Positions 12,017 through 51,099 of a stretch of 64,000 bases of DNA are shown here, piece after piece. The notes beneath the pieces were generated by a model that worked only from the letters and a program-made list of their open reading frames with translations, ran no database searches and had not been told where the DNA came from. The translations under genes were made by a program, and so were the position numbers. The stretch comes from Alitabrizicola rongguiensis (GTDB lineage: Bacteria; Pseudomonadota; Alphaproteobacteria; Rhodobacterales; Rhodobacteraceae). How positions within the stretch are numbered: the stretch's first letter is position 1; every line of letters begins with the position of its first letter. The DNA is taken from positions 682,001-746,000 of the forward strand of contig NZ_JAKENF010000003.1 in assembly GCF_021491355.1 (NCBI RefSeq), in the 5' to 3' direction.

Positions 12017-12789
12017 CTCCTCCTGCCCGCATTGATCCGCCCGATCTTTCAGCCTTCGGGACCTTCCGCGTGCTCGGACCCATGGTTGGCGGCCGCCGCG
12101 CCACCGTCTGGCGGGTCGAGGACGACATGGGCCGGCTCTACGTCGCCCGCAGCACCCGGCGGAGCGAGGCGCAATTGCGGTGGGTCTTGTCGCTGATGCG
12201 GCTTGCCCGCCAGGCCGGTTTCCGGGTTGCCCCCTACCGTACGACGTTGAGTGGTGCGGTCGCCCCTGCGGGCTGGACGCTCGAGCCCTTCCTCGACGGG
12301 CGTGGGGCGGGCGTGGCCGAGATGCGGGCGCTGGCGCCGCGCATCCGCGCTTTTCACGACCTGACGGCAGGGATTCCGCAACGCCCGGGCTTCGCCTCTT
12401 GCCTTGATCTTGTTACGGGCGATCGCGGCGGCGATGTGGACTTGTCCTTGGTGCCAGTCGACCTCGCCACGGAAATGCGCGCGACCTGGGAACCCTTTCT
12501 CGGCCGGCCGACCGCGGCGCTGCATGGCGATCTCGGGCCGGGCAACGTCCTGATGGCAGTCGGCGGGCCTGCCCTGATCGACTGGGACGAGGCGCGCTGC
12601 GACCTGCCGCTGCACGACCTGGCCACGGGCGGCGAGCTTTCGGTCACAGAGGCCCGCGCCCATCTCGCCTTCGAGATCGCTACGAGCTGGAGGGACGAGC
12701 CGGACTATGCCCGGGAACTGCTGGGGCAGTTCCGCCCCGTCGGCTTTCCCGATCCCCCGCGCAGGGCGAGTCGGGTGTTGCGCATCTGA
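12013..12789 (+). CDS. Phosphotransferase of the aminoglycoside/choline kinase fold
   Basis: A 258-residue protein-kinase-like phosphotransferase. The catalytic loop LHGDLGPGNVLM (near residues 174-185) and the metal-binding DWDEA motif (near 195) are intact, and an ATP-lobe Val-rich strand (ATVWRVED) precedes them. The APH-like fold covers small-molecule kinases; nothing indicates antibiotic resistance. The start overlaps the VOC stop as ATGA, suggesting coupled translation; the frame opens earlier, at 11968, but inside the VOC gene. Confidence 0.8.
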   Translation: MTPPARIDPPDLSAFGTFRVLGPMVGGRRATVWRVEDDMGRLYVARSTRRSEAQLRWVLSLMRLARQAGFRVAPYRTTLSGAVAPAGWTLEPFLDGRGAGVAEMRALAPRIRAFHDLTAGIPQRPGFASCLDLVTGDRGGDVDLSLVPVDLATEMRATWEPFLGRPTAALHGDLGPGNVLMAVGGPALIDWDEARCDLPLHDLATGGELSVTEARAHLAFEIATSWRDEPDYARELLGQFRPVGFPDPPRRASRVLRI

Positions 12790-20471: not shown

Positions 20472-20545
20472 CACGCCCCCTTATCCTGCCGCTGCGTCAG
20501 CTCGAAAATACATCGTTAACCCAGTTGTGCCAGTGTCGATGTTGT

Positions 20546-20625
20546 TCCGGTTCAGGGCGTCTCAACCGGAGCGCGACTTCCTCCCTGTTGACTGGCCGCG
20601 CCTCGCTTAAGGCGCGGCTTTTTTT
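20546..20625 (+). ncRNA. Candidate small RNA 1 (CTCCCTGTTG motif, strong terminator)
   Basis: An intergenic + strand element. A first hairpin has arms TCCGGTT (20546-20552) and AACCGGA (20564-20570). A single-stranded linker contains CTTCCTCCCTGTTGACT. The terminator has arms GCCGCGCCT (20595-20603) and AGGCGCGGC (20610-20618) followed by seven T. No gene reads into it: the neighbour upstream is transcribed away. The linker resembles candidate RNA 3 at 51020-51099 and is partly complementary to candidate RNA 2. I found no convincing promoter, so the 5' end is uncertain. Confidence 0.5.
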
Positions 20626-20671
20626 CATGATTTTCAAAAGTACAGGTCGCAAATTCTCGTGAAGAAAGTCG

Positions 20672-20700
20672 TTGACGCATGTGCCGATCCGGCCTAGCGT
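20672..20700 (+). promoter_or_regulatory. Promoter of candidate small RNA 2
   Basis: TTGACG (20672-20677), a 17-base spacer and TAGCGT (20695-20700) form a sigma-70-type promoter. Transcription would start near 20707, about 70 bases before a strong terminator. Confidence 0.55.
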
Positions 20701-20706
20701 CCCGAA

Positions 20707-20777
20707 CCATGAAGTCGGCCAGTCCGACAGGGAGCAAAAAAACAAACCGGAAAAGGGCCTCGCTGCAGGCCCTTTTT
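20707..20777 (+). ncRNA. Candidate small RNA 2 (complementary to RNAs 1 and 3)
   Basis: About 71 bases between a good promoter and a terminator with arms AAAAGGGCCT and AGGCCCTTTT around CGCTGC, ending in a T-run at 20777. Near its 5' end a small hairpin GTCGG-CCAGT-CCGAC (20714-20728) is followed by an A-rich stretch. Positions 20721-20734 (AGTCCGACAGGGAG) can pair with all 14 bases of 51056-51069 in candidate RNA 3 (one G-U pair), and in two blocks of seven and eight with 20581-20597 in RNA 1. It could also be a leader ending at an attenuator, but the next gene starts 170 bases later. Confidence 0.5.
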
Positions 20778-20946
20778 CATTTCGGGCGGGGCGCGAACCG
20801 TAACGGGGCCTTCACATCCCCTCACGATTGAAAGATCGCTGCATGCAATCTCGGTGAGGATTCGTCCGTCCGCGCTTTTCGCACCTGACACCGTGCCCGG
20901 CGCGTGCTAATCGGCGGGCGAATGATGCGTCCTGATGGAACAGCCG

Positions 20947-35976: not shown

Positions 35977-36160
35977 GCGGCGCGCCAGACTTCGCCCGGT
36001 CCTGTTTCTGCCGGCCGGGCGGAGTGGGCCGCGCAATTGCCTGAGTCCGGACCTGCCATTCCACGATCACGAAATTCGGACCCGCAGCGCGGCACTTTCC
36101 ACCAGCAGTTCCGGGCCGGTCCTGCCCCCAGGACGTTGCACCGCAAGCCCGGAAATGCCG

Positions 36161-36190
36161 ACGGGGCGCCTCCGATCGAAGGCGCCCCGT
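36161..36190. terminator. Bidirectional terminator-like hairpin
   Basis: ACGGGGCGCCT (36161-36171) and AGGCGCCCCGT (36180-36190) form a perfect eleven-base stem with an eight-base loop. It lies between the convergent fasciclin and aminotransferase genes. T-runs on both sides are weak. Confidence 0.6.
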
Positions 36191-36225
36191 TGCTGTTTCT
36201 CCCTGCCGGACTTGGCCGGTCTTCG

Positions 36226-37623
36226 TTACGCGGCGGCCTTCAGCCAGCCGTCGGCCTTCAGCGCCGCATAGGTCTCGTCGAGCGATTTCCAGGCGCGCTC
36301 GATGAGCACGTCGATTTCCGACGGCTCGATGACCAGGGGCGGCGAGATGATCATGCGGTCACCGACGTGGCGCATGATGAGGTCGTTGGCAAAGCAGCGC
36401 TCGCGGCAACGATAGCCGACCTTGCCTTCGTCGGTGGCGAACTTGGCGCGGGTGGCCTTGTTCGGGGTCAGCGCGATCGAGCCCATCAGGCCGACGAGCT
36501 TGGCCTCGCCGACCAGCGGGTGCTCGGTCAGGCTTTGCCATTTCACCGCGAGATAGGGATTGGCCACGTCGCGGACGTGATCGACGATCTTCTCTTCCTG
36601 CATGATCCGCAGGTTCTCCAGCGCCACGGCCGCGGCCACCGGGTGACCCGAATAGGTGTAGCCGTGGTTGAAGTCGCCCGCGCCGCCGACGGTCGCCGCC
36701 ACCTCGTCACAGACGATCGACCCGCCGATCGGCTGGTAGCCCGAGCTGAGGCCCTTGGCGATGGTCATGATATGCGGGCGGATGTTGAAGGTCTCCGACC
36801 CGAACCAGTTGCCGGTGCGGCCGAAACCGGTGATGACCTCGTCGGCGATCAGCAGGATGCCGTACTTGTCGACGATGCGCTGGATTTCCGGCCAGTAGGT
36901 CGAGGGCGGAACGATCACGCCGCCGGCGCCCTGGATCGGCTCGCCGATGAAGGCCGCGACATTCTCGACGCCAAGCTCAAGGATCTTCTCTTCCAGCTGG
37001 CGCGCACGGGCCAGACCGAATTCCTCGGGCGACATGTCGCCGCCCTGGGCCCACCAGTTCGGCTCGTCGATATGGACGATGCCTTCGATCTTGCCGCCAT
37101 GGGCATGGATCGACTTCATCCCGCCGAGCGAACCGCCGCCGAGGGTCGAGCCGTGATAGCCGTTCCAGCGACCGATGATCGTGCGCTTTTCGGGCTGGCC
37201 CTTGACCTGCCAGTAGCGGCGGACGAGGCGGATGTTGGTGTCATTGGCCTCCGAGCCCGAACCGGCGAAGAAGACGTGGTTCAGATCGCCCGGGGCAAGC
37301 TCGGCGAGCTTGGCGGCCAGCGCGATGGCCGGAACATGGGTGGTCTGGAAGAAGGTGTTGTAATAGCTCAGTTCTTCCATCTGGCGGGCAGCGGCCTCGG
37401 CCAGTTCCTTGCGGCCGTAGCCGATGTTCACGCACCACAGGCCTGCCATGGCGTCGAGGATCTTGTGGCCCTCGCTGTCCTTCAGCCACACGCCCTTGGC
37501 CGAAGTGATGACGCGTGCCCCCTTCTGGGCCAGTTCCGCATTCGCGGTGAAGGGATGCATGTGATGCGCGGCGTCGAGGCGCTGCAGCTCGGCGGTCGGC
37601 AGGTGGTTGGTGATCTTGTTCAT
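36226..37623 (-). CDS. Class III omega-transaminase (amine/diamine:pyruvate type)
   Basis: A 465-residue PLP-dependent aminotransferase. Landmarks are the N-terminal HHMHPFTANAELAQKGARV, the cofactor-phosphate segment FFAGSGSEANDTNIRL, NGYHGSTLGG, IADEVITGFGRTGNWFG and the PLP lysine in IAKGLSSGYQPIGG. It resembles broad-range amine:pyruvate transaminases of roseobacters and SpuC-type polyamine enzymes. The exact amine cannot be given. The start MNKITNHLP is chosen by similarity; the frame upstream to 37698 is promoter DNA with two TGATCA-centred palindromes. A GntR regulator gene lies directly upstream. Confidence 0.85.
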   Translation of the reverse strand: MNKITNHLPTAELQRLDAAHHMHPFTANAELAQKGARVITSAKGVWLKDSEGHKILDAMAGLWCVNIGYGRKELAEAAARQMEELSYYNTFFQTTHVPAIALAAKLAELAPGDLNHVFFAGSGSEANDTNIRLVRRYWQVKGQPEKRTIIGRWNGYHGSTLGGGSLGGMKSIHAHGGKIEGIVHIDEPNWWAQGGDMSPEEFGLARARQLEEKILELGVENVAAFIGEPIQGAGGVIVPPSTYWPEIQRIVDKYGILLIADEVITGFGRTGNWFGSETFNIRPHIMTIAKGLSSGYQPIGGSIVCDEVAATVGGAGDFNHGYTYSGHPVAAAVALENLRIMQEEKIVDHVRDVANPYLAVKWQSLTEHPLVGEAKLVGLMGSIALTPNKATRAKFATDEGKVGYRCRERCFANDLIMRHVGDRMIISPPLVIEPSEIDVLIERAWKSLDETYAALKADGWLKAAA

Positions 37624-50952: not shown

Positions 50953-50984
50953 AGCGGCGTTGCTGCACTAGCAGCATTCTTCAC

Positions 50985-51013
50985 TTGAACCGACTCGTTC
51001 GCCCCCCTAGATC
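50985..51013 (+). promoter_or_regulatory. Promoter of candidate small RNA 3
   Basis: TTGAAC (50985-50990), a 17-base spacer and TAGATC (51008-51013) form a good sigma-70-type promoter with a predicted start near 51020. Confidence 0.6.
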
Positions 51014-51019
51014 GGTCGG

Positions 51020-51099
51020 CGAGGCGGTGATCGAGTTTCTCTCACTTCCTCATACCTCCCTGTTGGACTTGGGCCGAGCTTCTGCTCGGCCTTTTTTTT
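51020..51099 (+). ncRNA. Candidate small RNA 3 (CTCCCTGTTGGACT motif, strong terminator)
   Basis: About 80 bases from a clear promoter to a strong terminator: arms GGCCGAGC (51072-51079) and GCTCGGCC (51084-51091), loop TTCT, then eight T. The stretch before the stem, CCTCATACCTCCCTGTTGGA, is pyrimidine-rich like anti-Shine-Dalgarno small RNAs and resembles candidate RNA 1. Positions 51056-51069 can pair along all 14 bases with 20721-20734 of RNA 2. The T-run is on the + strand only, so this is not the terminator of the convergent sigma-factor gene. No coding frame fits. Confidence 0.65.

Follow-up and report, generated by a model that had tools for sequence, protein, structure and literature searches.

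We find that an intergenic locus at 20707-20780 of the 64,000-nucleotide window of Alitabrizicola rongguiensis DNA analysed here encodes a candidate small RNA, RNA-2, that is probably a sponge, preventing the sibling small RNAs SorY, SorX and RNA-1 from switching off genes for nutrient transporters. Few stress small RNAs of Rhodobacter have been studied as closely as SorY and SorX, and a conserved sponge for them would, if confirmed, explain the thresholding and resetting of their output. The initial annotation had proposed a single partner 30 kb away; pairing with that partner, a SorY homologue, stands, but two further partners, SorX and the nearest one, RNA-1, had been overlooked, bringing the number to at least three. 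The idea of a titrating sponge for an anti-Shine-Dalgarno RNA is well supported by conservation, kept complementarity and co-occurrence, with sponge activity in vivo being what we infer from them, and the case is broader than first stated; sponges of this kind are already known from CrfA.

RNA-2 (plus strand, ~72-74 nt; 81.9 bits in the window with our own covariance model R1) consists of a 5-bp hairpin, GUCGG-CCAGU-CCGAC (20714-20728, from fold and alignment), followed by AGGGAG, an A-rich linker and a Rho-independent terminator (~20749-20776, from sequence and fold). It has a predicted folding energy of -26.1 kcal/mol (z -2.6 against dinucleotide shuffles), with the AGGGAG end of the pairing site CGGCCAGUCCGACAGGGAG (20716-20734, plus strand) unpaired; positions 20721-20734 of this site pair with SorY and 20716-20734 with RNA-1. 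In alignment A1, no part of RNA-2 is more conserved than the pairing site; the hairpin is paired in 99.6% of cells among 48 sequences, with a double change in two of its pairs, and the terminator shows compensatory changes at 8/8 stem pairs of the model. TTGACG (20672-20677) and TAGCGT (20695-20700), separated by 17 nt, form a sigma-70-type promoter on the same strand; in 142 of 146 loci a TTGAC lies no more than 60 nt ahead of RNA-2, and in 141 it is accompanied by a -10-like hexamer at a distance of 16-18 nt, and the promoter looks to be of the housekeeping class and apparently constitutive. A small open reading frame in RNA-2 was considered and rejected, as the ATG at 20709 is unconserved and alignment A1 contains no shared reading frame. 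Some genomes (e.g., G152 and G225) have 2-4 matches to the RNA-2 model.

The initial annotation knew of no described pair of this kind; that is no longer the case, as the partner at 51.0 kb, RNA-3 (51018-51099, plus strand), matches Rfam SorY (RF02651) with 72.0 bits and an E-value of 7.9e-15, and our own model R3 with 91.5 bits. The SorY features, a CCUCCCUGUUGGACUU core and a terminator (hairpin 51071-51092 plus T8), are both present in RNA-3, and its core CAUACCUCCCUGUUGGACUUGGGCCGAGC is identical to that of the Rfam SorY model. The stretch complementary to RNA-2, CCTCCCTGTTGGACTT, lies at 51055-51070 on the plus strand; the fold has a z of -4.0 against dinucleotide shuffles and leaves the pairing seed unpaired, and RNA-3 is situated downstream of a LysR-type gene. 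An Rfam search at gathering thresholds gives no match, while a relaxed search returns SorY, SorX and MmgR. RNA-3 falls below the RF02651 gathering score (72.0 versus 111 bits), a cutoff that is species-specific, since only one of 249 genera of the family, represented by R. sphaeroides (115 bits), passes it; by model score and core, RNA-3 is a SorY homologue, though no member by Rfam's rule. It has its own promoter, CTTGAA (50984-50989) and CCTAGAT (51006-51012) on the plus strand, which we assign to the RpoHI/RpoHII type as judged by sequence, and the CTTGA element of SorY is present in 37 of 40 further genera. In R. sphaeroides, SorY depends on RpoHI/RpoHII (PMC5036791). SorY is further characterised by repression of takP and by induction under singlet oxygen. 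Of the two units initially described as having their own -35 and -10 boxes at 17-base spacing and terminators, both possess terminator-like hairpins and RNA-2 the spacing, but the second unit is better assigned to the RpoH type than to sigma-70; a strict promoter scanner detected neither the RNA-2 nor the SorY-homologue promoter.

The complementarity first noted between 20721-20734 (AGTCCGACAGGGAG) and 51056-51069 (CTCCCTGTTGGACT) is confirmed in both coordinates and pairing, with 14/14 pairs including one G-U, and across the whole 4.2-Mb genome these two segments alone match the pattern CTCCCTGTYGGACT exactly. Searching the genome with the RNA-1 model recovers RNA-1 itself, SorY and one more sibling, which is on another contig and located downstream of an OmpR-type gene, as SorX is. 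By model match and gene context this third sibling is the SorX orthologue and a third predicted partner of RNA-2. The hybridisation gain computed for full-length RNA-2 is -18.0 kcal/mol with SorY (0/200 dinucleotide shuffles of RNA-2 as good), -19.6 kcal/mol with RNA-1 (1/200) and -17.4 kcal/mol with SorX (7/200).

Our covariance models (R1 for RNA-2, R2 for RNA-1, R3 for SorY) were then applied to one genome per genus for 249 Rhodobacteraceae genera. RNA-2 is present in 228 genera at E<=1e-3 (213 with E<=1e-8), R3 matches in 238, and R2, which picks up siblings too, also in 238. Outside the family, a class-wide sample returns RNA-2 model matches at noise level only (20-27 bits), apart from genome G297 (34.5 bits, the best extra-family match), which was rejected, its locus being without the core. 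Eleven of the 249 genomes have no SorY match, and nine of these are also without RNA-2 (Fisher p 1.7e-9, kinship ignored), with RNA-2 matches in the remaining two at noise level only; since R3 can recognise siblings, a genome counted here as lacking SorY lacks every close sibling. RNA-2 and SorY occur together in Rhodobacteraceae, which is the outcome of the co-occurrence check that the initial annotation had proposed. One and the same SorY core, CCTCCCTGTTGGACT, is shared by 28 loci and by 40/40 further genera. The RNA-2 site, taken from sequences of 142 genera extracted by covariance model rather than by motif, pairs with this invariant core at 14/14 positions in 131 genera, and the remaining 11 reach 13/14. 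Independent variation of the two segments would have spoken against the pairing, and they do not drift apart. Covariation between SorY and RNA-2 is almost nil because both cores hardly vary; the predicted pairing is strongly supported by conservation, and covariation gives no proof of it.

RNA-1 (20537-20626, plus strand; R2, 66.9 bits) is an anti-Shine-Dalgarno small RNA of MmgR/SorX-like architecture (hairpin, CUUCCUCCCUGUUGACUGGCC, terminator) that lies ~140 nt upstream of RNA-2 on the same strand, with CUUCCUCCCUGUUGACUGGCCG between hairpin and terminator. Its seed, TTCCTCCCTGTTGACTGGCCG (20578-20598, plus strand), is the complement of RNA-2 20716-20734 with one bulged base. The complementarity between the two RNAs reaches up to 19 nt, and the 1-nt bulge in this genome arises because one G is missing from RNA-1; in several relatives the RNA-1 core, CTCCCTGTCGGACTGGCCG, is the exact reverse complement of 19 RNA-2 bases. 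The Rfam scores of RNA-1 are weak, 28.7 bits for SorX and 23.8 bits (E 0.009) for suhB/mmgR, both under gathering. Like MmgR/alphaR8 (suhB, RF00519), RNA-1 has a weak hairpin, an unpaired UUCCUCCCU and a terminator, and its CUUCCUCCCU matches the alphaR8 UUUCCUCCCU 10-mer at 9/10 in the right position between hairpin and terminator, but it differs in scoring 23.8-25.6 bits, under the gathering score of 41. Upstream of RNA-1, at 20505-20540, a motif ATACA..TTAACC...TGCCAGT is conserved in most relatives; it is not a sigma-70 box and may represent either a CtrA-like half site or the divergent ATPase gene's promoter.

The proximity of RNA-1 raises the alternative that the two form a local pair, in which RNA-2 controls, or is controlled by, adjacent RNA-1, with the SorY/SorX match a by-product of the core that the siblings share. 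RNA-1 is kept directly upstream of RNA-2 in 124 of 146 loci, and its match to RNA-2, the longest at up to 19 nt, gives the strongest duplex energies (cores, -34.9 kcal/mol versus -13.2 kcal/mol for shuffled cores); furthermore, the cores of RNA-1 and RNA-2 resemble an inverted duplication. RNA-2 variants are matched by changes in RNA-1 at loci L185 and L306 (RNA-2 CAAGTC, RNA-1 GACTTG), L365 (RNA-2 ...GGTCAGTC, RNA-1 GACTGACC) and L399. Cognate pairs across the 124 loci have a mean predicted energy of -34.89 kcal/mol versus -34.71 kcal/mol for permuted pairs (permutation p 0.0035), a small effect in a set partly chosen by exact pattern, and the test was redone on the 142 genera found by covariance model. 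Here, 94.2% of RNA-1/RNA-2 cells are paired versus 93.9% when shuffled, with 3/300 shuffles as high, and double, compensatory changes occupy 6 cells versus 2.3 expected, with 6/300 shuffles as high. This covariation excess is real and small, in a statistic that ignores kinship. However, in 85 of 120 genera one column carries an A-C mismatch of RNA-1 to RNA-2, as compared to the 14/14 pairing of SorY in 131 of 142, and RNA-2 persists without a recognisable adjoining RNA-1 in some genomes. We consider a purely local pair unlikely, if the foremost of the alternatives.

The same locus can be followed into R. sphaeroides 2.4.1, which we recognise in genome G089 because its SorY match at 1,632,645 agrees with the published SorY 5' end at 1,632,642 (PMC6238624). 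The order there is catalase, RNA-1-like, RNA-2 and an IalB-like gene, with the two small RNAs adjacent to each other. RNA-2, at about 1,426,528-1,426,606 on the minus strand of chromosome 1, is placed at RSP_2778 because the neighbouring katE is RSP_2779. The R. sphaeroides RNA-1, CCTCCCTGAACTGGACTGGCC, contains a small insertion that breaks the long match to RNA-2, while the SorY/RNA-2 complementarity stays full. RSs2778, renamed UdsE, has a 5' end that is a transcription start, with a promoter that is not RpoH-type; it is affected by RNase E and PNPase, has no reported function, and is published as 5'-UTR-derived with a co-transcript, Hfq being absent from the listed factors (PMC8625941). 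The locus of RNA-2, between katE and the IalB-like gene, and its non-RpoH promoter class fit UdsE, which differs in being described as 5'-UTR-derived. RNA-2 is probably the UdsE/RSs2778 orthologue, an identity drawn from position only; if so, a sponge role would give the orphan UdsE a function.

The published 5'-UTR origin and co-transcript of UdsE, if it is RNA-2, also fit a cis-acting element, that is, a leader or attenuator of the downstream IalB-like gene to which anti-Shine-Dalgarno small RNAs bind to control readthrough, and an ialB-like gene does come next in the loci inspected by eye. A strong terminator nevertheless separates RNA-2 from ialB, a ~150-nt gap and a separate promoter-like CTGACA-16-CTAATC precede ialB, and the pairing site is coupled to no start codon, which together leave this reading improbable. 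Less probable still is that RNA-2, with its Shine-Dalgarno-like AGGGAG, acts as an ordinary regulator of mRNAs that contain stretches resembling CUCCCUG, or that it is a decoy to which the 16S anti-Shine-Dalgarno sequence binds, as the conserved site runs far beyond AGGGAG into a 14-19-nt match with sibling small RNAs, SorY alone in this genome contains, outside RNA-2, an exact complement of the 14-mer (SorX fits with one change), and RNA-2 is without a conserved start codon. Chance complementarity between unrelated terminator-ended RNAs is conceivable for one 14-nt match in a 64-kb window, where 1/60 random 14-mers from the window find a second complementary site (with at most one G-U), but is scarcely credible for a match that recurs over 142 genera, with both segments strongly conserved and three partners.

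The explanation that we favor, and consider fairly likely, is that RNA-2 is a constitutive, Hfq-type small RNA that titrates the sibling anti-Shine-Dalgarno RNAs via a decoy AGGGAG and so sets a threshold for their action. The computed pairing gains, the likeness to a ribosome-binding site and the fit to transporter targets lead us to read RNA-2 as a target-site decoy: AGGGAG, with AC before it, is ribosome-binding-site-like, and when single-stranded would mimic the ACAGGGAG ribosome-binding site that fronts the genes of transporter solute-binding proteins. In this model, pairing would start between AGGGAG and the single-stranded CUCCCU of SorY, SorX or RNA-1 and extend along the 3' arm and the loop of the small hairpin in RNA-2 until the duplex measures 14-19 bp, which would mask the sibling seeds and/or send the siblings to decay; the full 14 bp requires melting of the RNA-2 stem, which counts against this explanation, as do the 5'-UTR origin published for the probable orthologue UdsE and the absence of Hfq from the factors listed for it. 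During growth, RNA-2 would be transcribed in this strain and mop up basal SorY, SorX and RNA-1. Heat or oxidative stress would raise the siblings driven by RpoH above the level of RNA-2, so that they repress transporter mRNAs, and once the stress is over RNA-2 would clear them. It is because the RNA-2 promoter is sigma-70 and that of SorY RpoH that RNA-2 would set a threshold, with control running in this direction.

The published targets point to the same gene class, takP in metabolite uptake for SorY and a spermidine transporter for SorX. In the A. rongguiensis genome, ACAGGGAG-N3-10-ATG sites number 25 versus 4 for the reversed pattern, mainly a general ribosome-binding-site signal, and 8 of 10 tested genes behind a ACAGGGAG site encode solute-binding proteins of transporters, a figure to be read as a lead and not a rate because the genes were picked after their N-termini were seen. 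Solute-binding-protein loci behind ACAGGGAG in this genome include L247, L251, L254, L257, L259, L262, L264 and L240. Solute-binding-protein genes with a ACAGGGAG ribosome-binding site are the likely target class of SorY and RNA-1, and we offer them as a list of likely targets.

The closest known system is CrfA of Caulobacter crescentus, which sponges the alphaR8 siblings SisA-D via their UUUCCUCCCU core (PMC12559287). SisA-D repress transporter and receptor mRNAs and share this anti-Shine-Dalgarno core, and in both systems a separately transcribed small RNA pairs through a G/A-rich stretch with the anti-Shine-Dalgarno core of the siblings; RNA-2 itself combines conserved complementarity to small RNA seeds with a separate promoter and terminator, as read at the sequence level. 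The two differ in that they belong to different orders, in that RNA-2 pairing runs 14-19 nt, beyond the anti-Shine-Dalgarno 10-mer, and in that RNA-2 adjoins one of its partners and seems constitutive, unlike CrfA, which has a starvation-induced promoter. The best reading is that RNA-2 works like CrfA, by analogy with the described architecture of CrfA and not with its sequence. Sponges of anti-Shine-Dalgarno siblings in a second alphaproteobacterial order would, if confirmed, suggest that this may be a general design. The R. sphaeroides counterparts of the proposed partners are SorY (RF02651) and SorX (RF02784), to which RNA-3 and the third sibling correspond, and no sponge for either was found in the literature searched, which excluded the original SorY, SorX and StsR papers; a text search with the core sequences returned unrelated papers only. 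StsR/UpsM of R. sphaeroides is likewise a small RNA targeting a small RNA in the same group of organisms, with neither RNA involved here; identity with it was rejected, as the reverse complement of the StsR probe, CCGTTCTACCTTCACTGTCC (PMC11354728), is absent from the loci.

A more far-reaching view, which we hold tentatively and at somewhat less than even confidence, is that RNA-2 descends from an inverted duplication of RNA-1 and serves the whole family as a master sponge, its decoy ribosome-binding site controlling all of the anti-Shine-Dalgarno small RNAs (RNA-1, SorY and SorX) with which Rhodobacteraceae tune their nutrient uptake, and that an aminotransferase mRNA has recently received a second copy in its 3' UTR. 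That second element (36154-36233, minus strand) has an RNA-2-like hairpin, AAGTCCGGCAGGGAG (AGTCCGGCAGGGAG) and a terminator and sits immediately past the stop codon of a gene for a class III aminotransferase. Its R1 score (26.8 bits) is at noise level, yet its core is exact, with SorY pairing at 14/14 and two G-U. Among relatives it is present only in the closest, G003, and a conserved aminotransferase 3'-UTR sponge was rejected on this ground; the element is possibly a recent 3'-UTR sponge.

A contig from a viral collection, IMGVR_UViG_3300017830_000029 (L301), ends with RNA-2 (12583-12603) followed by an ialB-like gene, and this copy is likely to come from host DNA at the edge of a prophage or from a contig that was misassigned.
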